A stretch of DNA of 64,000 bases from contig MAAN01000027.1 of NCBI GenBank assembly GCA_002163135.1, positions 62,001 through 126,000 of the forward strand, in the 5' to 3' direction. The position numbers and the translations under genes are program-made. Positions 13,665-45,833 of this stretch are shown here, piece after piece (the stretch's first letter is position 1; each line of letters opens with the position of its first letter). The stretch comes from Alphaproteobacteria bacterium 46_93_T64. GTDB lineage: Bacteria; Pseudomonadota; Alphaproteobacteria; Sneathiellales; Sneathiellaceae. The notes below the pieces were generated by a model. The model did not search any database. It was not told the DNA's origin and worked only from the letters and a program-made list of their open reading frames with translations.

Positions 13665-13703
13665 GAACTTTTGTAGAACATTCACAATGTTTTTGTTTTG
13701 TTC
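13665..13703. promoter_or_regulatory. Tandem LexA (SOS) boxes upstream of lexA
   Basis: GAAC-TTTTGTA-GAAC at 13665-13679 (perfect GTTC-N7-GTTC class on the reverse strand) and GTTT-TTGTTTT-GTTC at 13689-13703 (one mismatch), directly before the lexA start. A TTGACG -35-like hexamer sits at 13651-13656. Confidence 0.85.
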
Positions 13704-13720
13704 TAAAGGGGTTGGAACGG

Positions 13721-14452
13721 ATGCTGACGAAAAAACAACATGAACTTCTGATGTATATTCACACTTATCTTGAAGGAAAAGGTGTGTGTCCTTCATTCGA
13801 TGAAATGAAGATAGCATTGGATTTGAAATCCAAATCAGGCATTCATCGTTTGATTACTGGACTTACAGAACGTGGATTTATTCGACGCCTTCCTCACCGC
13901 GCCCGCGCACTAGAGGTTTTGAAATTACCTGATGCAGTTCTACCTGTGGGAATGTCAAAGCGTCATGCAAAACCAACTGACAGTACGAACGATTTTAATG
14001 TTGTAAAGGGTGAGTTTGGATCGAAACCTATTAGCAGTTCGGTTTCGGCATCACCCTCAACATCTGAAACCGCTATTAACCTCCCCCTTTATGGACGCAT
14101 TGCAGCCGGCATGGGTGTCGAAGCCCTCGCCGATCCTAGTAATTTTGTTGATATACCACCTTCAATGCTCGGGGGTGGAGAACACTATTGCCTCGAAGTT
14201 GACGGCGACTCCATGATTGATGCCGGTATTCATGATGGGGACACTGTGATTATCAATGAATGTAAAACTGCGGAAAATGGGGCAATTGTTGTCGCCCTCA
14301 TCGATGATCAGGAAGTGACACTTAAAAGGATGCGGCGCAAAGGTAATACTGTTGCGCTGGAAGCTGCAAATCCAGATTACGAAACCCGTATTTTTGGTCC
14401 CGACCGCATTAAGGTTCAGGGGAAACTCGTTGGGCTATTCCGGAAATATTGA
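13721..14452 (+). CDS. lexA: LexA repressor
   Basis: N-terminal wHTH ([29 protein letters not shown]), AAGMG cleavage site, GDSMIDAGI Ser and [10 protein letters not shown] Lys. ORF track start at 13712 is TTG; ATG at 13721 preferred. Confidence 0.96.
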
Positions 14453-34470: not shown

Positions 34471-37400
34471 CTAAATATCGTGAACATCCAGTACTCCCGG
34501 CACGTATTTCAGCGCTTGTCGAACTTCCGGTGAAATGCTGAAAGCAGACGATAAATCGAGTTCAACTTCCTTGGATTCCCCTTCGAGATTCAATACAAAA
34601 GCCACTCGACCGCGTCCAGGTCCACTTTTTTTCAATATTTCAGCGATTTGGTCTAGGGGGCTATCATCATCCATAAATATCCGCACCCCGTCACCAATTT
34701 GGGCGGCGACGGTCTCTAACCGCTGGGCGGATTGCGCAGTTACTCTCGGTTGCTCATTCTCCATGTCGATATGGCCATTTACGCTCAAGACAAGAGAACT
34801 GCCAACATCCAAAATATCCTGACATTGCATCAGGGTTTCCTCAAACATTGTCACTTCAAATGCACCCGATGCATCAGAGAAAGTGATAAACGCGAGGGCT
34901 TTACCCTTTTTCGTCTTGATTTGACGCTTGGCCATAACGGTACCAGCGAGTTTCGCCGCACTCTCTGCTGCGCTCAATCCTCCAAAATAAGCAACACTGC
35001 TACGCACACCGGCTTTGTCCAGAGTTTTAGCGTAAGCATCTAGTGGATGCCCTGAAAGATAAAAGCCGACCGCATCGAACTCCTGCTTCAATATTTCCAT
35101 AGAAGTCCAACGATTAGCTTTCGCAAGAACTGGCGCTACATCTGCACTGGTATCCGCCCCGCCAAACAGGTTCACTTGACCCGAACCACGCTCTTCTTCC
35201 ATTTGTTGAGCATGGCGCAATAAGGTCTCCAACGACGCAAACACTTGCGCGCGATCAGCTATCAATGCATCGAATGCCCCTGCTCGTGTCAGATTTTCGG
35301 CCTGCCGCTTATTCAGATGTTTTGGGTTCAAGCGGGATGAGAAGTCAAAAATATCTTTGAAATATCCGTTTTCCCTTCGGTCTTGTACAATACCGGCCAT
35401 AGCCTCTTTACCGACATTCTTAACAGCAGCTAAGGCATAACGAACCGCCCCGTCTTCACCTTCAATCTCAACACTAAATTCAACTTCTGATCGGTTCATG
35501 CAAGGTGGATGTAACGGGATTTTCATCCGGTCCAGATCCTGACGGAAGATATTGAGCTTATCTGTATTGTTAATATCGAGGCTCATGGAAGCTGCCATGA
35601 ATTCAACAGGATAGTTCGCCTTCAAATAGGCTGTATGATAGGAGACCAATGCATAAGCTGCCGCATGGGATTTGTTAAAACCGTAACTCGCAAACTTTGC
35701 CACAAGATCGAAAATATGACTGGCATCTTTTGCATCAACCCCCTGCTCCACCGCGCCCTCACAGAAACGATCTCGCTGCCTATCCATTTCTTCCTTGATT
35801 TTTTTACCCATCGCCCGCCGGAGCATATCCGCTTCACCCAGACTGTATCCTGCCAGTACTTTTGCGATTTCCATCACCTGTTCCTGATAGATGATGACGC
35901 CGTATGTTTCTTCCAAGATATCTTTTAGCTTTTCATGGAGTAGGTTTGGTTCCTCCTCTCCATGTTTACATCTGATATAGGTTGGGATGTTTTCCATTGG
36001 GCCCGGACGGTACAAGGCCACAATCGCGATAATATCCTCAAATGCATCAGGGCGCATTTTCCGAAGCATGTCCCGCATGCCAGAACTCTCAAGCTGGAAC
36101 ACTCCAACGGTATCACCAGCCGACAGCAACTCAAAACTCGCCTTGTCATCCAAGGGTAGTTTTGCAAAATCAATTTTAATACCGCGTTTAGCAATAAGGT
36201 CTTTTGCGCGATCCAAAACTGTGAGTGTTTTAAGTCCCAAAAAGTCAAACTTAACCAAGCCAGCAGTTTCCGCATATTTCATGGAGAACTGCGTTACAGG
36301 CATGTCAGATCGCGGGTCGCGGTATAGGGGCACCAGCTTATCCAGTTCCCGGTCCCCAATAACAACACCTGCAGCATGGGTAGATGCGTGCCGGTACAGA
36401 CCTTCCAATTGAAGTGCAATTTCAATCAGACGTGCAACTTCAGGATCGTTGCGACGAGCCTCTCGCAACGGAACTTCTGTATCAAGTGCTTCTTGCAAAC
36501 TCACAGGGTTTGCAGGATTGGACGGGATTAACTTACTAATACGATCGACTTGCCCATAGGGCATCTGCAGCACACGTCCTACGTCGCGGATCGCGGCTTT
36601 AGCCTGCAATTTACCAAACGTGATAATCTGCGCCACCTGATCGTGGCCGTATTTTTCCTGAACATAACGAATAACGCGTTCGCGTTTATCCTGGCAAAAG
36701 TCGATATCAAAATCGGGCATACTCACACGTTCCGGGTTGAGGAAACGCTCAAACAGCAAACCAAATCGCAAAGGATCCAAATCGGTAATTGTAAGCGCCC
36801 ACGCGACAACGGAACCCGCGCCCGAACCGCGCCCTGGTCCTACTGGAATATTTTGTTCTTTAGACCATTGAATAAAATCCGAAACGATCAGGAAGTAACC
36901 CGGAAAGCCCATTTGATTAATGATACCGGTTTCATAATCAAGGCGATCCCAATACTCCTTAGCTTTTGCCGCTAAGGTTTCCTTATCCATATCATCAGTA
37001 AAAACTTCTGCATCCAGTCGTTTTTGTAGCCCTGTCCGTGCCAATGCCTCCAACTGCCCTGCTTCGTCAAGCCCGTCACCAGAACCAAATGCTGGCAAAA
37101 TAGGGTCGCGTGCGGGTGACGCAAAAGCGCATCTTTGCGCAATGACCAATGTATTATCGATTGCTTCAGGAAGATCTTTGAAAATATGTCGCATTTCTTC
37201 AGCAGATTTGAAGTAATGATCCGGAGTACGGCGTTTTCGCTCCAGATCCCCGACATATTTACCAGCGGCAATACAAAGCAACGCATCATGTGCGTCATAC
37301 ATATCCCGTTTTGGGAAAAAGCATTCGTTTGTCGCAACTAGCGGAATATCGAGCTCATACGCAAAATCCAGCATTGCGGGCTCTGTCAGTCGTTCATGAT

Positions 37401-37986
37401 CAATACCATGTCTCTGTAGTTCCACATACAGACGATCAGGGAAACACTCTTTAAGGGTGACAAGATAGGCCTTCGCCTCATCCTCTTTTTCAGATGCGAT
37501 CAGTCGCCCAACAGGGCCTTCTGCGCCGCCAGTTAAACATATAAGACCATCTGCATGTTGTTCAATAATATCAAAGGGAACTTGAGCAGTGTCTCCCGCT
37601 TCTGTTTTCAGAAACGCATGAGAGGTCAGTTTTAAAAGATTATGATATCCTGTTTCGTTTTGCACCAACAACACGATGGGATCCGGCTCCGGTCGTCGCC
37701 CATTTCGTTCAATTTCACCATCGTTTGAAACCGCAATTTGACACCCGACAATCGGCTGAACGCCTTTACCCGGAAGCGCAAGAGAGAATTCGAGGCTACC
37801 GAACATATTGTTTGTGTCGGTTATCGCAACCGCGGGCATATTGTTTTCTTTACAAAGATCTACCAGTTTTTTAACTGGTATCGCCCCTTCAGATAAAGAA
37901 TATGCACTATGGACCCGAAGATGGACAAATCCGGCGTGAGACAATGTCGTTCCCTCTAATTCAGACTTCATTCGTCCCATTATCAC
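34471..37986 (-). CDS. dnaE: DNA polymerase III alpha subunit (DnaE1 type)
   Basis: PHP domain VHLRVHSAYSLSEGAI; GPGRGSGAGSVVAWAL; MPDFDIDFCQDKRERVI; FNKSHAAAYALVSYHTAYLKANYPVEFMAA. Confidence 0.96.
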   Translation of the reverse strand: MIMGRMKSELEGTTLSHAGFVHLRVHSAYSLSEGAIPVKKLVDLCKENNMPAVAITDTNNMFGSLEFSLALPGKGVQPIVGCQIAVSNDGEIERNGRRPEPDPIVLLVQNETGYHNLLKLTSHAFLKTEAGDTAQVPFDIIEQHADGLICLTGGAEGPVGRLIASEKEDEAKAYLVTLKECFPDRLYVELQRHGIDHERLTEPAMLDFAYELDIPLVATNECFFPKRDMYDAHDALLCIAAGKYVGDLERKRRTPDHYFKSAEEMRHIFKDLPEAIDNTLVIAQRCAFASPARDPILPAFGSGDGLDEAGQLEALARTGLQKRLDAEVFTDDMDKETLAAKAKEYWDRLDYETGIINQMGFPGYFLIVSDFIQWSKEQNIPVGPGRGSGAGSVVAWALTITDLDPLRFGLLFERFLNPERVSMPDFDIDFCQDKRERVIRYVQEKYGHDQVAQIITFGKLQAKAAIRDVGRVLQMPYGQVDRISKLIPSNPANPVSLQEALDTEVPLREARRNDPEVARLIEIALQLEGLYRHASTHAAGVVIGDRELDKLVPLYRDPRSDMPVTQFSMKYAETAGLVKFDFLGLKTLTVLDRAKDLIAKRGIKIDFAKLPLDDKASFELLSAGDTVGVFQLESSGMRDMLRKMRPDAFEDIIAIVALYRPGPMENIPTYIRCKHGEEEPNLLHEKLKDILEETYGVIIYQEQVMEIAKVLAGYSLGEADMLRRAMGKKIKEEMDRQRDRFCEGAVEQGVDAKDASHIFDLVAKFASYGFNKSHAAAYALVSYHTAYLKANYPVEFMAASMSLDINNTDKLNIFRQDLDRMKIPLHPPCMNRSEVEFSVEIEGEDGAVRYALAAVKNVGKEAMAGIVQDRRENGYFKDIFDFSSRLNPKHLNKRQAENLTRAGAFDALIADRAQVFASLETLLRHAQQMEEERGSGQVNLFGGADTSADVAPVLAKANRWTSMEILKQEFDAVGFYLSGHPLDAYAKTLDKAGVRSSVAYFGGLSAAESAAKLAGTVMAKRQIKTKKGKALAFITFSDASGAFEVTMFEETLMQCQDILDVGSSLVLSVNGHIDMENEQPRVTAQSAQRLETVAAQIGDGVRIFMDDDSPLDQIAEILKKSGPGRGRVAFVLNLEGESKEVELDLSSAFSISPEVRQALKYVPGVLDVHDI

Positions 37987-38037
37987 ACATCCTTGCTTAA
38001 AGATCAGTCCTTGACATCCCTCTTCGCGGATATTTCT

Positions 38038-38046
38038 TGTGGATAA
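38038..38046 (-). promoter_or_regulatory. Perfect DnaA-box consensus upstream of dnaE
   Basis: TTATCCACA on the minus strand (TGTGGATAA on plus), 52 nt before the dnaE start. Confidence 0.45.
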
Positions 38047-38084: not shown

Positions 38085-38192
38085 TTAGCCTGTAAAGCTA
38101 TGAACGATTTCAGCCCAGAAAACCATCGTAGCAAGCACGCCACCAAAGACGACGAATTCGAAACTGTTTTTGATTAGATTTTTACCAGCCAT
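38085..38192 (-). CDS. Small membrane protein, 35 aa, with tandem LexA boxes upstream (candidate SOS-induced SidA-like protein); not in the ORF track
   Basis: Minus strand ...GCGGAGGATAAA-ATG...TAA: MAGKNLIKNSFEFVVFGGVLATMVFWAEIVHSFTG. Strong GGAGGA RBS, one hydrophobic segment, SOS boxes at 38223-38259. Confidence 0.7.
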   Translation of the reverse strand: MAGKNLIKNSFEFVVFGGVLATMVFWAEIVHSFTG

Positions 38193-38222
38193 TTTATCCT
38201 CCGCTATATTTTCAAGCAGAGT

Positions 38223-38259
38223 GTTCTCATTTTGTTCCTGAGTCAAACAAAAAGAGAAC
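38223..38259. promoter_or_regulatory. Tandem LexA (SOS) boxes upstream of the 35-aa ORF
   Basis: GTTC-TCATTTT-GTTC at 38223-38237 (perfect alphaproteobacterial SOS box) and AAAC-AAAAAGA-GAAC at 38245-38259 (one mismatch to GAAC-N7-GAAC). Confidence 0.8.
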
Positions 38260-38338: not shown

Positions 38339-39283
38339 TCAATCGCTTAAGAAGCGATTCCTATCTACGGCTGTTAAGACCGAAACAACCACCTCATTCA
38401 GAGTATGTCTTGAAGTATCGATCTGGAGTTCTGCCTGTTCATATAAAGCTTCCCTACTTTTAAGGATATTACGAAGCTCCGACATTGCTTCGGGGTTACC
38501 GGCCATGGGACGCTCGTCTCCCTGCTTCCTGACCCGCGCCATATGATCTTCGGGATCCGCCTTCAGCCAAATCGTGTGATAATGCCTGAGCAGGTATTTG
38601 AACGTTTCAGGTTCCGAGACAATCCCACCAGCCACCTCTAAAACAAGCGTTTCATTGGTGGCGACAGTGCGTTCAATCGATTGCTTCTCCAATCGGCGAT
38701 AACCTTCTTGGCCATACAAAGCCATCACTTCATCTACAGGCATACCACTAGCCTGTTCTATTTCTTCATTAAGCTCAAGGAAGGGTATATTTTTATGCTT
38801 TGCAAACAGGCGACCGACCGTCGACTTACCCGCCCCTCTCAATCCAATAAAAGCAATACGTGACGCTCTCCTGGAATCAGGGTGTTCTGGGTCAAGAATT
38901 TCCAGTACCTTTTGTCGTTTTTCCGCTGTGGCTTGATTAAAAAGAGTTATCACAGGGAGAATTTCAGAAGAATAAGGATCTTCCTCTCCGACAAGCCATT
39001 CAATTTTGTAATCCAATGCGTCAGCGACACGACGCAACAATACAATTGAGATGTTCCCCGCCCCTGTTTCCAGTTGCGCCAAATATCGTTGCGACACACC
39101 CGAAATTTCAGAAAGCGTTTTCCGAGATATATTCTTCCGTGCCCGCGCAGCACGAACGCGGTCCCCAACGAGTTCCAAAAAACCGTCAGTTACGTCCGCA
39201 TTATTCTGAGAATGAACGTCGCCATTCTCAGCACTCATTTCTCCAAAAGTCGCTATCTCATTCGTCATGTCATTCGAGACCAC
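38339..39283 (-). CDS. boxR: BoxR/BzdR-type regulator: XRE helix-turn-helix plus shikimate-kinase-like domain
   Basis: N-terminal HTH (RVRAARARKNISRKTLSEISGVSQRYLAQLETGAGNISIVLLRRVADAL) fused to a P-loop domain IAFIGLRGAGKSTVGRLFA; adjacent to boxB. Confidence 0.92.
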   Translation of the reverse strand: MVSNDMTNEIATFGEMSAENGDVHSQNNADVTDGFLELVGDRVRAARARKNISRKTLSEISGVSQRYLAQLETGAGNISIVLLRRVADALDYKIEWLVGEEDPYSSEILPVITLFNQATAEKRQKVLEILDPEHPDSRRASRIAFIGLRGAGKSTVGRLFAKHKNIPFLELNEEIEQASGMPVDEVMALYGQEGYRRLEKQSIERTVATNETLVLEVAGGIVSEPETFKYLLRHYHTIWLKADPEDHMARVRKQGDERPMAGNPEAMSELRNILKSREALYEQAELQIDTSRHTLNEVVVSVLTAVDRNRFLSD

Positions 39284-39332
39284 TCAGTATATCTCACCTC
39301 TTGAACAATTGGGACAAAGTGTGACATTGAAA

Positions 39333-40784
39333 TCAGGAATCCTGTATCTGAACATATTCAAAGTCACCAGGCTTGTTGTCAATTCCCATACGAGGCGGTG
39401 CAATCCAACCCGCATATTTACCCGGCTCTAGTTCAGGCTTCATCAAAGACTTTATATACTCGCCATCTTCCTTGGAAGGAAGCCATTCTAGCTGACGATC
39501 CTTCCATTGATCATCACTTATAATTAGACCCTCAGGTGTCGTGTGAACTGCTGAGAATTCACCAATTTGACGATGGAATGCCTGATGAGGCACCTTCAAT
39601 TCTAATTCAATTCCAAGTTTTTCAATAATCGCATTCCAACGCCTTACCCCGCCGCTGGCGTCACGTACATAATCATCACGAAGGCGCATATTAATTCCCG
39701 ACAATGCAGGAACATCTTCATTCACGATCACACCGTCGCGAAGACGCATAATGGGATACGTGGAGTTTTTAAGCTGATGATCATCATCAATTTTCGTTTC
39801 GCGGAAACGTCCCTTGATCCCTGCATTAAACGCATTTGCTGCGTTGGTGGAAACTTCTGATCCAAATAGGTCCAATGACAATGTATAATGTAAATTGAGT
39901 TTTTTCTGGATCGTCGGCAGATCTATCACACCGAGCTCTCTAACCGCATTAATGTCGTAGGGATCCGTAATGCCTGCCTCTTTCATGGCTTCACAAGTGC
40001 AGCGAATAACGCGACCAACGCCAGTCTCTCCGACAAACATATGATGTGCTTCTTCAGTGATCATAAATCGGCAAGTGCGTGAAAGCGGATCAAACCCCGA
40101 TTGCGCAAGGCTTTCAAGTTGCATTTTGCCATCACGATCAGTGAAACATGCGAACATAAAGAAAGACAACCAATCAGGAGTTTCTTCGTTAAAGGCGCCC
40201 AGCATACGAGGCGCCTCGTCTGAACCTGATTGACGGCGTAGAAGCTCATTAGCCTCCTCACGTCCGTCCCGTCCAAAATATTTTTGGAGCAGATACACCA
40301 TCGCCCAAAGGTGACGACCTTCTTCTACATTCACCTGAAACAGGTTTCGCATATCATATAAAGACGGCGCGGTTGCACCAAGGAAACGCTGTTGTTCGAC
40401 CGATGCAGGTTCTGTATCCCCCTGAATTACAATCAAACGGCGTAGCATGGCGCGATATTCACCTGGCACTTCTTGCCAAACTGGTTCCCCTAAATGCTCA
40501 CCAAACGGAATTCGGCGATCTTCTACTTGCGGCGCAAGTAAAATCCCCCACCGATATTCCGGCATTTTGACGTAATCAAACTTGGCCCAGCCCTTAGGAT
40601 CAACACTAACCGCAGTTCTAAGATAGACTTGGCTTTCATGAAATCCATTTGGTCCAAGATCTTTCCACCAATTGATATAACCCGGATGCCATTTCTCCAG
40701 AGCCTTCAAAACCCGCTTATCAGATGACAAACCGACGTTATTGGGGATTTGAGTATCGTAACTCACATTCATTAGATTTGTCAT
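39333..40784 (-). CDS. boxB: Benzoyl-CoA 2,3-epoxidase, oxygenase subunit BoxB
   Basis: Sequence recognisable as BoxB (EKWHPGYINWWKDLGPNGF, QVNVEEGRHLWAMVYLLQKYFGRDGREEA, TEEAHHMFVGETGV with di-iron type E..H ligands). Confidence 0.94.
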   Translation of the reverse strand: MTNLMNVSYDTQIPNNVGLSSDKRVLKALEKWHPGYINWWKDLGPNGFHESQVYLRTAVSVDPKGWAKFDYVKMPEYRWGILLAPQVEDRRIPFGEHLGEPVWQEVPGEYRAMLRRLIVIQGDTEPASVEQQRFLGATAPSLYDMRNLFQVNVEEGRHLWAMVYLLQKYFGRDGREEANELLRRQSGSDEAPRMLGAFNEETPDWLSFFMFACFTDRDGKMQLESLAQSGFDPLSRTCRFMITEEAHHMFVGETGVGRVIRCTCEAMKEAGITDPYDINAVRELGVIDLPTIQKKLNLHYTLSLDLFGSEVSTNAANAFNAGIKGRFRETKIDDDHQLKNSTYPIMRLRDGVIVNEDVPALSGINMRLRDDYVRDASGGVRRWNAIIEKLGIELELKVPHQAFHRQIGEFSAVHTTPEGLIISDDQWKDRQLEWLPSKEDGEYIKSLMKPELEPGKYAGWIAPPRMGIDNKPGDFEYVQIQDS

Positions 40785-40847
40785 TCAATGTTCCTCACCA
40801 ATTAATTTCTAGTGCAGATATATCCGCTTTTGTTTCTATTCGGGACT

Positions 40848-42533
40848 TTAGACCCGACCCATATCAAACTTGCCCCGAACACCCGTTCCATAGCTCTGCA
40901 AGGCACCTTCAGCCCCAACAGCATTCGGACGTTGGAATATCCAGTTTTGCCATGCTGTTAGGCGTCCAAAGATCCGTGTTTCCATTGTCTCCGGTCCCGC
41001 AAATCGTAAATTTGCTTCCATACCAGTCATGGCATCTGGGGAAAATTTTGCACGCTCTTCAAAGAAAATGCGAATTTCATCATCCCAATCAATGTCATCA
41101 AAACAAAAGGTTACAAGACCTAGCTCATCCACTTCACCAGCTTCCAAGGGTTCGTTTTTACGTTTTGCAGCGGAAACAATTTTGTCTGGATCGCCCAAAA
41201 ATCGGGTCTGCAACCGAGACAGGTCATTTGACATCGGATAAAGCCCGAAGTTACCTTCATTCAACAATATGGAAGCCACTGGACGATCATCATCTTCGAA
41301 CTCGCCTTCTGCCATGTAGCTACGATCTACTGAAAATAGAAGCTCAGCCAGAACACCTGCGAAACAGGACCCCGGCTCCACGAGGGCCACAAGTGAGCGC
41401 GATGTCATATCAACACGCTTGAGAACCCTTTTCCAGAATTTCAGGATCTCGTTCGCCAACCAATGATCTTTGTTATCGATCAGGAATTTTTCATGTGCCG
41501 AAACTAATTCATTGCTCCCTTGGGTACCAAAAACAATAACGCCAACCTCAAGCTCATTCAAACGCAGGTTCAAGATTGCGTCATTAAGCTCACGGGCACA
41601 GCGCAACATCCAGCTTTCAGCCCCATCACGTTCCAACTGTTCGGTTGTTTTAGGGGCAGCATCTGCTGGACCAGCGATATCAATACGCGCAATCCCTTTA
41701 TTTCGATCAATATCGACAGATACCGTGCTGTAGCGAATGTTACCACCCTCTTCGAATGTCCGGCTCAGAGGGGTAAGCTCTATTCCATTCGATGGCTTTC
41801 CGGTATCCAAGCTATCAGCAAATTCGCGTGCTCGTTCGCCTACAACGGCATCAAACTTGGCATTGGAGACAACCTCGTCGACAAGCCCCCATTCTTTGGC
41901 CCGTTGCCCCCGAACGCCTTCTTCGAGGGTACAAAAAACATCAGCCAAGTCTCGACGAACTTTCCGCTTATCCGTCACACGCGTAAGACCGCCAGTACCC
42001 GGTAATACGGCAAGCAAAGGGACTTCAGGAAGGGAAACACTGCTAGAGCCATCATCTGTCAACAGAATGTAGTTAGTGGCAAGCGCCAACTCATATCCAC
42101 CGCCGGCGCAGGAGCCTTTTACAGCGCTCATATAAAGCTGCCCAGAATCTTCTGAAGCAGCTTCAAAAGTATTGCGAGTTTCGTTGGTAAATTTACAAAA
42201 ATTCACTTTCAGCGCATGACTAGATCTGCCAAGCATCCTAATATTTGCGCCCGCACAGAACACTTTATCCTTCGCGGATCGCATAACAACGACCTTAATT
42301 TCCGGATGTTCAAAACGCATACGCTGAACAATATCAGCCAGTTCGATATCTACGCCAAGATCATAGGAGTTCAGCTTTAACTCATAGCCATCAAACAGAC
42401 CCCCGTTTTCATCTACATCCATGTAGAGACTGGCGATGTCATTGTTATATTCAATGCGCCAATGGCGGTATGAATTAGGATCTACTTGAAAATCAATGCG
42501 CTCGCCCACAACGAACCTCCCTACATATTCCAT
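40848..42533 (-). CDS. boxC: 2,3-epoxybenzoyl-CoA dihydrolase BoxC (crotonase superfamily)
   Basis: Long crotonase-like protein, VFCAGANIRMLG, KGSCAGGGYELALA; next to boxB. Likely true start is GTG at 42509 (GGGAGG RBS, MGERIDFQV) rather than 42533. Confidence 0.93.
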   Translation of the reverse strand: MEYVGRFVVGERIDFQVDPNSYRHWRIEYNNDIASLYMDVDENGGLFDGYELKLNSYDLGVDIELADIVQRMRFEHPEIKVVVMRSAKDKVFCAGANIRMLGRSSHALKVNFCKFTNETRNTFEAASEDSGQLYMSAVKGSCAGGGYELALATNYILLTDDGSSSVSLPEVPLLAVLPGTGGLTRVTDKRKVRRDLADVFCTLEEGVRGQRAKEWGLVDEVVSNAKFDAVVGERAREFADSLDTGKPSNGIELTPLSRTFEEGGNIRYSTVSVDIDRNKGIARIDIAGPADAAPKTTEQLERDGAESWMLRCARELNDAILNLRLNELEVGVIVFGTQGSNELVSAHEKFLIDNKDHWLANEILKFWKRVLKRVDMTSRSLVALVEPGSCFAGVLAELLFSVDRSYMAEGEFEDDDRPVASILLNEGNFGLYPMSNDLSRLQTRFLGDPDKIVSAAKRKNEPLEAGEVDELGLVTFCFDDIDWDDEIRIFFEERAKFSPDAMTGMEANLRFAGPETMETRIFGRLTAWQNWIFQRPNAVGAEGALQSYGTGVRGKFDMGRV

Positions 42534-42545
42534 ATGTCAACATCA

Positions 42546-42609
42546 TGCATTTTAATGCAATAATTATCATAGTATTTTTATATAATGCAATATAATGCAA
42601 TATTATGCA
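42546..42609. promoter_or_regulatory. Phased TGCA repeats, candidate BoxR operator in front of boxC
   Basis: TGCA at 42546, 42556, 42586, 42596 and 42606; all spacings are multiples of 10 bp; core TATAATGCAATATAATGCAATATTATGCAT. Confidence 0.65.
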
Positions 42610-43391
42610 TAATTCTTAAAAAAGCAACTTAATAAGGGGATTAGCCTGTCAGGATATTCCAAATGCGGGGAATGACCGCATTTATCAAACACTTCAATCT
42701 GCAGCGGTGAATTGATTTCAACCTGTAACGTCTCCATTTGCTTTAGCGTTCCATATTCATCTTCTCGCCCCTGCACGGCGAGTACAGGAACTCTAATATT
42801 TGAAATGAAATCTTCAATATTCCAGTGAGCAAATTCTGGATCTAACCAGCTGTCACACCACCCTCTAAAAGCGCCATCTACATCGGCGTGATACTTAGAC
42901 AATTTCTGCCGAAGATCACTACGTTCATATTTATCACTGACTTTTCTTATTGCTGCAGTGCTTATGGGTTCTGAAAAAAAGTGTGGCGCAATAAGAGATA
43001 TGGCTTTTAATCTGTCATCCTGATGACACGCTGCATATATAGCTGCAATAGACCCACCATCACTATGTCCCAGCAAAAACCCTGACTTAAGTCCAATTTC
43101 GTCAAGCACCATCGGCAGCACCTGTTCACCTTCAACATTCATATAACTAAGAGGTCTTGGAAGTTTTATAGGGTCAGAACGACCGTATCCTTGGCGGGAA
43201 TACACGAACACACCAAACCCGGTTTCTGCAGCAAGTTTTTCTGGAAAATCGCGCCAAAGCTCAACCGAGCCAAGCCCCTCATGCAGCAAAACAATTGTAT
43301 CAGTATCCGCAGGAGAAGGTCCTAAGCACTTTCCTTCTAACTGAACACCATCAACACAAAATGATACATACTCACCTGAGCACCACTCCAT
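42603..43391 (-). CDS. Alpha/beta hydrolase in the box cluster
   Basis: VLLHEGLGSVELWRDFPEKLAAETGFGVFVYSRQGYGRSD, LLGHSDGGSIA nucleophile elbow, KCGHSPHLEYPD His. Confidence 0.85.
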   Translation of the reverse strand: MEWCSGEYVSFCVDGVQLEGKCLGPSPADTDTIVLLHEGLGSVELWRDFPEKLAAETGFGVFVYSRQGYGRSDPIKLPRPLSYMNVEGEQVLPMVLDEIGLKSGFLLGHSDGGSIAAIYAACHQDDRLKAISLIAPHFFSEPISTAAIRKVSDKYERSDLRQKLSKYHADVDGAFRGWCDSWLDPEFAHWNIEDFISNIRVPVLAVQGREDEYGTLKQMETLQVEINSPLQIEVFDKCGHSPHLEYPDRLIPLLSCFFKNYA

Positions 43392-43403
43392 AAGTTCTGG
43401 GCC

Positions 43404-44939
43404 TTATCGCAGCTTGAAACGTTGTATTTTTCCTGTCGCTGTTTTAGGGAGATCTTCAACCACCTCAATCCAACGAGGATACTTCCACTTTCCGACAGCG
43501 TTTTTTACGTGTTCTTTCAAGATTTCCTCTAAGCCAACAACGCCGTTTCCGTCTTTCAAGACAACATATGCTTTAGGCTTGTCGAGACCGTTTTCATCAG
43601 CCGCTGCAACCACCGCGGCCTCTAATACTTCTGGATATGTGACAAGCGCCTGTTCAATTTCAAACGGGGATACCCATATGCCGCTGACTTTGAACATGTC
43701 ATCTGTTCGGCCACAATAAACTAGCCGACCATCCGCTTGTTTTTCGTACTTGTCACCAGTACGCGTCCATTGTCCTTCAAACGTAGCGCGACTTTTATCT
43801 CGTTGGTTCCAATAGGCATCTGCTGCTGATGGACCATTGACCAATAATTCCCCGATCTCACCTGCAGAAACTTCTGCACCGTGATCGTCCACAAGGCGCA
43901 ATTCATAGCCCGGCACCGCCGTTCCTGAAGTTCCATAGACAACGTCGCCAGGACTGTTTGACAGGAAAATATGAAGCATTTCTGTAGACCCCACGCCGTC
44001 CAAAATATCCACGCCGGTAATTTTTTGCCAACCTTTGCCTACTTCTGCGGGCAACGCTTCCCCTGCTGAAATTGATCGGCGCAACTGACCGAAGCCTTCA
44101 GGGACTCCCTCTGCCATAGCAGCAACCAAGGCCGCATATAACGTGGGAACGCCGCAAAATATCGTCGGTTCTGCAGATTTCATCACCTCAAAAATGCTGT
44201 CCGGTGTTGGCCTCCCGGGATACAAGATCGTCGTAGCCCCAACAGACAGAGGAAACGTCATCCCATTCCCAAGACCATAGGCAAAGAACAGTTTTGCTGC
44301 TGAGAAAATAATATCGTTTTCGTCAATTCCAAGTACTTGCCAGCCATATGTATCGGAAGTCGCCTTTAAACTGCTGTGAACATGCATGACGCCCTTGGGT
44401 CGCCCGGTTGATCCTGAAGAATAGAGCCAGAATGCGCATTCATCCTCAGACGCTTGTACGGTATCACGAGGTTTACAGCCCTTTAGAGTTGATCCGAAAT
44501 CGAAATACGGGGCAACCACGTCCTTGCCAATGACAAACACTGCACGAAGGTCTGCCGCATCTTTTAAGATTGGCTCAACGACTGGCAACAATTCTTCGGA
44601 AATGAAAAGTGCCTTGGCACGAGAATCCTGTAATATCGCGCCATATAACTCAGAAGATAAAAGCGCATTTACCGGAACCGGGATAACACCAGCCTTGATC
44701 GCTCCCCAAAAGATTACCGGAAATTCAATGCTGTCGAGTGTGATCATAGCGATACGATCTTCTCTGTGAACGCCACTTTGCTCTAACAGCTCTGCCATTT
44801 GAGCTGAACGCTCTTCAAGTTGAGCATATGTCAGTGACCTGCCATCTTCACCCGCTTCAATAAAAGCTGGCTTATGAGCTCGGTTATGTTCCGCGTGACG
44901 ATCTACAAAGTAAAGTGCAGCATTTCCATTATCTTCCAT
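43404..44939 (-). CDS. Benzoate-CoA ligase family protein; start set to MEDNGNAALYF (GGGAG upstream)
   Basis: AMP-binding motif YSSGSTGRPKGVMHVH, YCGRTDDMFKVSGIWVSPFEIE, PKTATGKIQRFKLR; clustered with boxBC. Confidence 0.9.
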   Translation of the reverse strand: MEDNGNAALYFVDRHAEHNRAHKPAFIEAGEDGRSLTYAQLEERSAQMAELLEQSGVHREDRIAMITLDSIEFPVIFWGAIKAGVIPVPVNALLSSELYGAILQDSRAKALFISEELLPVVEPILKDAADLRAVFVIGKDVVAPYFDFGSTLKGCKPRDTVQASEDECAFWLYSSGSTGRPKGVMHVHSSLKATSDTYGWQVLGIDENDIIFSAAKLFFAYGLGNGMTFPLSVGATTILYPGRPTPDSIFEVMKSAEPTIFCGVPTLYAALVAAMAEGVPEGFGQLRRSISAGEALPAEVGKGWQKITGVDILDGVGSTEMLHIFLSNSPGDVVYGTSGTAVPGYELRLVDDHGAEVSAGEIGELLVNGPSAADAYWNQRDKSRATFEGQWTRTGDKYEKQADGRLVYCGRTDDMFKVSGIWVSPFEIEQALVTYPEVLEAAVVAAADENGLDKPKAYVVLKDGNGVVGLEEILKEHVKNAVGKWKYPRWIEVVEDLPKTATGKIQRFKLR

Positions 44940-45048
44940 CAGCCCATTCTCCCTCAGACGAATTCGCCTGCAGGCTTTTCTCAAGCTCCTTAAGGCGTTC
45001 TTAAAACGAGCTTATATGAGATGTGATAAAGATTAAAGCCTTCAATTG

Positions 45049-45152: not shown

Positions 45153-45833
45153 CTATATTTCGATCACTTGACGATCATGAACTCGCATAACACGATCCAT
45201 ACGAGACGCAAGTTCTGTATTATGGGTTGCCACAACTGCGGCAACATTTCGGCTTTTAAGCAGCTCTACAAAATTGGTGAACACGATCTCTGCAGTTTGT
45301 TCGTCCAAATTACCTGTCGGTTCGTCCGCTAACAGCAATGAGGGCTTGTTGGCAAGAGCTCGCGCGATTGCTACACGCTGTTGTTCACCGCCAGACAGCT
45401 TAGCTGGCCGGTGCGTCAACCTATGGTCTAGATGCATCATACCAAGTAACTCGGCCGCATTTTCCTGTGCTTTTATTTTTGATACTCCGGAAATTAAATT
45501 CGGCATCATTACGTTTTCCAAAGCGGAAAACTCTGGAAGCAAATGGTGGAATTGGTAAACAAACCCAATTTCATCGCGGCGCATCTCAGTTCGTTTTTTG
45601 TCATTGGCAGCACTACAATCTACCCCACCAACAATGACCTTACCGTCACTTGGCGGCTCCAATAGTCCCGCGATTTGCAGCAATGTAGATTTACCAGAAC
45701 CGGATTGACCTAACAGAGCAACAATTTCACCTGCCTGAATGTTCAAATTCACACCCGATAGAATCTCTAGTTTTTCATTGCCTTGAGTGAAAACCCTACT
45801 AACATTTTCAAGCTGTAAAATAGGATTACTCAT
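45153..45833 (-). CDS. lolD: Lipoprotein-releasing ABC transporter ATP-binding protein; start set to MSNPILQLENV
   Basis: LLGQSGSGKSTLLQIAGLL, LSGGEQQRVAIARALANKPSLLLADEPTGNLD; follows lolC. Confidence 0.93.
   Translation of the reverse strand: MSNPILQLENVSRVFTQGNEKLEILSGVNLNIQAGEIVALLGQSGSGKSTLLQIAGLLEPPSDGKVIVGGVDCSAANDKKRTEMRRDEIGFVYQFHHLLPEFSALENVMMPNLISGVSKIKAQENAAELLGMMHLDHRLTHRPAKLSGGEQQRVAIARALANKPSLLLADEPTGNLDEQTAEIVFTNFVELLKSRNVAAVVATHNTELASRMDRVMRVHDRQVIEI

Follow-up and report, generated by a model that had tools for sequence, protein, structure and literature searches.

A 35-residue open reading frame upstream of dnaE

The 64-kb window (that is, the whole stretch of DNA that was analysed) carries on its minus strand an open reading frame of 35 codons plus a stop (38085..38192), here called the sidA-like gene, which starts with ATG, is preceded by GGAGG as ribosome-binding site and encodes MAGKNLIKNSFEFVVFGGVLATMVFWAEIVHSFTG, a protein with a single transmembrane helix. 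An earlier note on this DNA had proposed this frame, from 38192 to 38085, with the same ATG and GGAGG, and its reading and sequence proved to be correct. Also, its description as a single-TM protein agrees with the AlphaFold prediction, where residues 2-34 form one helix (pLDDT 94). Judged from hydrophobicity, the protein would be placed in the inner membrane.

The next gene downstream is dnaE (DNA polymerase III alpha; 34471..37944, minus strand), identified from its N-terminal part, being 57-84% identical to the DnaE proteins of the genus and the sister genus and 50-62% identical to those of other Alphaproteobacteria. Its start is likely the TTG at 37944 rather than the mechanically assigned GTG at 37986; a ribosome-binding site precedes this TTG, as is seen in the genus. 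Several dnaE genes of the genus seem to start with TTG. On the other side of the sidA-like gene, a benzoyl-CoA (box) degradation cluster occupies 38339-44984 (minus strand), with a BzdR/BoxR-type regulator, BoxB, BoxC, a hydrolase and a benzoate-CoA ligase. This cluster stands between the sidA-like gene and a lolD-like motif near 45227, whereas in some relatives (G010, G024, G023 and G001) the lolD motif lies close upstream of sidA; the cluster thus looks like an insertion.

When 61 genomes were searched at the protein level, the 35-aa frame, free of stops, was found in 22 of the 25 genus genomes (that of the window plus 21 more), with dnaE as the next gene on the same strand in all 22. The FVHL motif of dnaE lies 128-184 nt past the sidA stop codon in each of them. 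Concerning the three genomes without the frame, the contigs of G008 and G014 end at dnaE, and in G011 the region upstream of dnaE is intact. This last region (L206) has neither a LexA box nor sidA, an apparent natural loss of the gene. Candidate matches in G008 and G035 were rejected as spurious upon inspection. Across 20 aligned genus sequences, M1, K8, F11, E12, F16, F25, W26 and V30 are invariant. Moreover, mismatches between the orthologues fall on codon positions 1, 2 and 3 in the numbers 1964, 1788 and 4610, and the pooled pN/pS is 0.32, still lower for the closest pairs. By these measures, the frame evolves under purifying selection and is a real gene.

Promoter, LexA boxes and the gap to dnaE

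The coding-strand sequence from 38259 to 38218, GTTCTCTTTTTGTTTGACTCAGGAACAAAATGAGAACACTCT, holds the predicted promoter. Its -35 element is TTGACT (38241..38246, minus strand), of which TTGAC is kept in 22/22 orthologues, and a weak -10 region, CACTCT (38218..38223, minus strand), was placed by comparing the 22 upstream regions, many relatives having CATTAT. The 17-nt spacer between them contains GAACAAAATGAGAAC, a GAAC-N7-GAAC operator (38223..38237, minus strand) that reads on the plus strand as GTTCTCATTTTGTTC, an exact GTTC-N7-GTTC, with the ATG 30 nt away. The perfect motif of the earlier note is thus confirmed, in sequence and distance. This box is exact in all 22 orthologues, some 45-75 nt 5' of the start (with start codons picked by script), with TTGAC just 5' of the box and, in many, CATTAT after it.

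A second copy had also been reported, the two being described as tandem. This LexA-like box, GTTCTCTTTTTGTTT (38245..38259), is real and has one mismatch, but it reads on the minus strand, so that the pair is inverted; at the mismatch, its final four bases, GTTT, overlap the TTGAC of the -35. Its conservation is limited to a subset of the genus, similar boxes being found in G010, G006, G016 and G024 and an exact one in G005, while most others lack it.

The motif taken alone is not beyond chance: the 64-kb window has two exact copies of GTTC-N7-GTTC against 2.1 expected from shuffles, and conservation therefore had to carry the case. The only other exact box (13665-13679, minus strand) belongs to the promoter of lexA (about 13718-14449, plus strand), where an exact operator is accompanied by an inverted one-mismatch partner. 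Because the second exact match sits at lexA, and because the exact box is placed alike in 22/22 orthologues, the box of the sidA-like gene stands out from chance. The double-box layout of the window's lexA is the same as that of the sidA-like gene. More generally, lexA promoters in the genus and in other families have GTTC-N7-GTTC boxes, in most cases paired with an inverted copy that has one mismatch, and recA promoters of the genus have exact or one-mismatch versions of the motif. In these recA promoters (L144-L159), paired GTTT/GTTC-N7-GTTC and GTAC-N7-GTTC boxes lie about 66 bp apart. On the pattern of these promoters, GTTC-N7-GTTC is the LexA operator in the lineage of the window, and it is also the LexA motif of Caulobacter (PMC12700426). 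The conserved sites suggest that the sidA-like gene would be regulated by LexA.

The gap between sidA and dnaE has conserved elements of its own. A TGTGATAATGGG element (37976..37987, minus strand), kept in the genus with small changes, is likely part of a promoter belonging to dnaE, and a perfect 9-mer of the DnaA-box type, TTATCCACA (38038-38046, minus strand), is present in 22/22 genus genomes and in 3/77 upstream regions of dnaE in other Alphaproteobacteria. Control of dnaE by DnaA through TTATCCACA is possible. Since both elements are kept in the gap, an own promoter is suggested for dnaE, which would probably be transcribed from it downstream of sidA, and the LexA box probably acts on the gene of the peptide. 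The opposite assignment, in which the box serves dnaE and the frame is a mere short leader or uORF, would agree with a box that precedes dnaE on the strand of that gene and with a gap where no clear terminator was found. We consider it highly improbable, given that selection acts at the protein level, that a separate promoter-like element and a DnaA box are conserved in the genus between the two genes, and that in Caulobacter the frame at the equivalent place is the division inhibitor SidA (PMC4211646).

Distribution across Alphaproteobacteria and relation to SidA

The arrangement was sought at 80 dnaE loci of named Alphaproteobacteria, with dnaE as anchor and the window's own genus left out, the pattern being a LexA box with at most one mismatch followed by a short hydrophobic frame upstream of dnaE. 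A LexA box, a tiny single-TM frame and dnaE were found together at 24 of the 80 loci (with a box farther upstream in the case of L054), among them those of Caulobacter, Phenylobacterium, Brevundimonas, Maricaulis, Hellea, Aquisalinus, Parvularculaceae, Rhizobium, Sinorhizobium, Neorhizobium, Bradyrhizobium, Tardiphaga, Methylorubrum, Stappia, Ahrensia, Aureimonas, Rhodobiaceae and the PS1 clade. The scan used no SidA sequence, yet the 29-aa frames of two Caulobacter loci (L068, L096) and one of Phenylobacterium (L066) score 56-60 bits with the NCBIfam SidA model, whose cut-off is 35 bits; the scan therefore recovered SidA itself. The Brevundimonas frame reaches 23.9 bits against the same cut-off. 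Moreover, the 38.5 kb that lie upstream of dnaE contain 24 copies of GAAC-N7-GAAC, and the remaining 936 kb of the loci contain 23, an enrichment of about 25-fold.

In a second sample of one genome from each of 80 families, an exact box with a hydrophobic frame was observed in 10, and in none on the opposite strand; this figure is rough, because two additional one-mismatch hits look like chance and a known case (f60) was lost to the hydrophobicity cut. The distribution is patchy, since no such arrangement was seen at most of the sampled dnaE loci of Rhodospirillales-like bacteria, Rhodobacterales and Acetobacterales. The sister genus (G025) carries an intermediate, MFETQKLLRQGIEAVVMLAALYAIFTWATLIDGLIG, under an exact box and upstream of dnaE.

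The equivalog model for SidA (NF033228) finds neither the window protein nor any of 20 genus members, and its search of the window's genome gave no match. Below that cut-off, the window protein is not filed under NF033228. The model matches 1 of 389 sampled genomes of the class, plus the C. vibrioides control, and as it also misses the window protein, the wider SidA family looks largely unrecognised. A Pfam search returned a single match (E 0.08).

The similarity to SidA appears through profiles only. With a profile of 37 SidA-like proteins from outside the genus, run on the 64-kb window and the genus loci only, the window frame ranks first of 1856 six-frame ORFs with an E-value of 2.7e-4, the next one being at 4.8. 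An hhalign comparison of the genus family with the named set gives 65% and an E-value of 5.9e-5; here, none of 200 within-helix column shuffles reaches the real score, the best shuffle being at 21.2 against 21.5. The intermediate of the sister genus adds to this link. As a caution, short hydrophobic helices can resemble each other, and the window frame was not among the hits of the first profile (A2) in a search of the window's own genome. Also, when a profile of 23 named proteins was used on fresh genomes with position and box ignored, the top hits lay under LexA boxes, and for most of them dnaE was the gene that followed.

In sum, SidA is a single-TM inner-membrane protein of about 30 aa encoded directly upstream of dnaE with GTTC-N7-GTTC in its promoter, and the window protein, with 35 aa, one predicted helix, a predicted operator shared by 22/22 orthologues and found also at the genome's lexA, has position, operator, size and profile similarity in common with it; it is a divergent SidA-like variant. 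The earlier suggestion of a SidA-like, LexA-controlled peptide is in this way supported by a frame, a start region and an operator that are conserved genus-wide, by synteny with dnaE and by profile similarity.

Proposed function and comparison with known systems

In Caulobacter, SidA is induced by the SOS response and blocks division, interacting with both FtsW and FtsN; the model favoured by the authors is that FtsW/FtsI/FtsN are kept inactive (PMC4211646). We think it probable that the window protein is a divergent SidA orthologue, LexA-repressed and induced by damage, that would hold septal synthesis by FtsW/FtsI/FtsN inactive from the inner membrane. In undamaged cells, LexA bound at the operator within the promoter spacer would keep the gene off, and in the species of the window it may also occupy the inverted second box that overlaps the -35. 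Upon DNA damage, RecA would trigger the self-cleavage of LexA and the gene would be turned on, the short leader and the GGAGG site allowing immediate translation of the 35-aa peptide. The peptide would then enter the inner membrane, probably with its N-terminus inside, and keep the complex of septal synthesis from acting until LexA has been restored. Gene, operator and helix have good support; LexA binding and induction are predicted from the conserved sites, and topology, target, division arrest and thus the role as a division inhibitor are predicted as well.

Two other functions should be weighed. A long structured leader or an antisense partner is typical of systems of the TisB/DinQ kind, SOS-induced peptides that damage the membrane. 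Were the window protein one of them, it would depolarise the membrane and slow growth with no binding to the divisome. Small single-helix peptides of such action do exist in E. coli, as is described for DinQ (PMC3567139), but this function is unlikely here: the window protein is tied to SidA by synteny and by profile, its gene has a short leader with a strong site for ribosome binding, neither companion is apparent, and positions E12 and F25-W26 are conserved. Alternatively, the protein could be an SOS-regulated SidA homologue by position that acts on another partner, such as a different divisome or envelope protein; with a mean column identity of 29% in the wider family (A2), the target could have changed. 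However, place, regulation, size and helix are all conserved and a retained function is the simplest explanation, so we give a change of partner little weight.

Beyond the genus, we lean towards the sidA-dnaE pair being an ancestral alphaproteobacterial locus. In this view, the LexA-controlled helices of a fast-evolving, mostly unannotated family, fixed on the upstream side of the replicative polymerase gene, would act as the SOS checkpoint of division in much of the class, and it would be the peptide, not the polymerase, that is controlled by the LexA boxes before dnaE. The data suggest that SidA-type control of division after DNA damage is far commoner in Alphaproteobacteria than annotation shows. 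In the literature covered, no report of SidA homologues outside Caulobacter was found, which is weak evidence, and priority is uncertain. As relatives of the locus stand before dnaE in Hyphomicrobiales, Maricaulis, Hellea, Parvularculaceae, Rhodobiaceae and others, many Alphaproteobacteria with no known SOS division inhibitor may carry one that gene callers miss. This yields a list of candidate peptides and a set of natural variation for mapping how a helix of 30 residues can stop septal synthesis.

SidA of Caulobacter crescentus (CCNA_02004; NF033228) resembles the window protein in its LexA-type operator and its place directly upstream of dnaE, both being tiny single-helix membrane proteins where the N-terminal edge of the helix has basic residues followed by acidic ones. 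The window protein differs in having 35 aa instead of 29, in coming from another lineage, in lying below the detection of the SidA model and in a motif of its own, FE...F...FW[AS][ED][IL]V. We take CCNA_02003 to be the dnaE of C. crescentus, though the recovery of SidA by the scan does not hinge on this numbering. In that species, dnaE is listed as CC1926 (PMC1839093), and sidA as CCNA_02004 (PMC10769358). DidA of Caulobacter, an SOS-independent division inhibitor, is likewise a small membrane protein with a single helix, and it acts on the FtsW/FtsI/FtsN complex (PMC4211646). It differs in having 71 aa, in being controlled by DriD rather than LexA and in binding FtsN. YneA of Bacillus and SosA of Staphylococcus are set apart as Gram-positive proteins with larger extracellular parts, and DinQ and TisB of E. 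coli are under the control of antisense RNA and long leaders, their target being the membrane itself. What YneA and SosA share with the proposed function is that they are SOS-induced division inhibitors, YneA having a single transmembrane segment and interacting with FtsW (PMC13396833; PMC6851548). DinQ and TisB are alike in being SOS-induced single-helix peptides, in their case toxic ones (PMC3567139).
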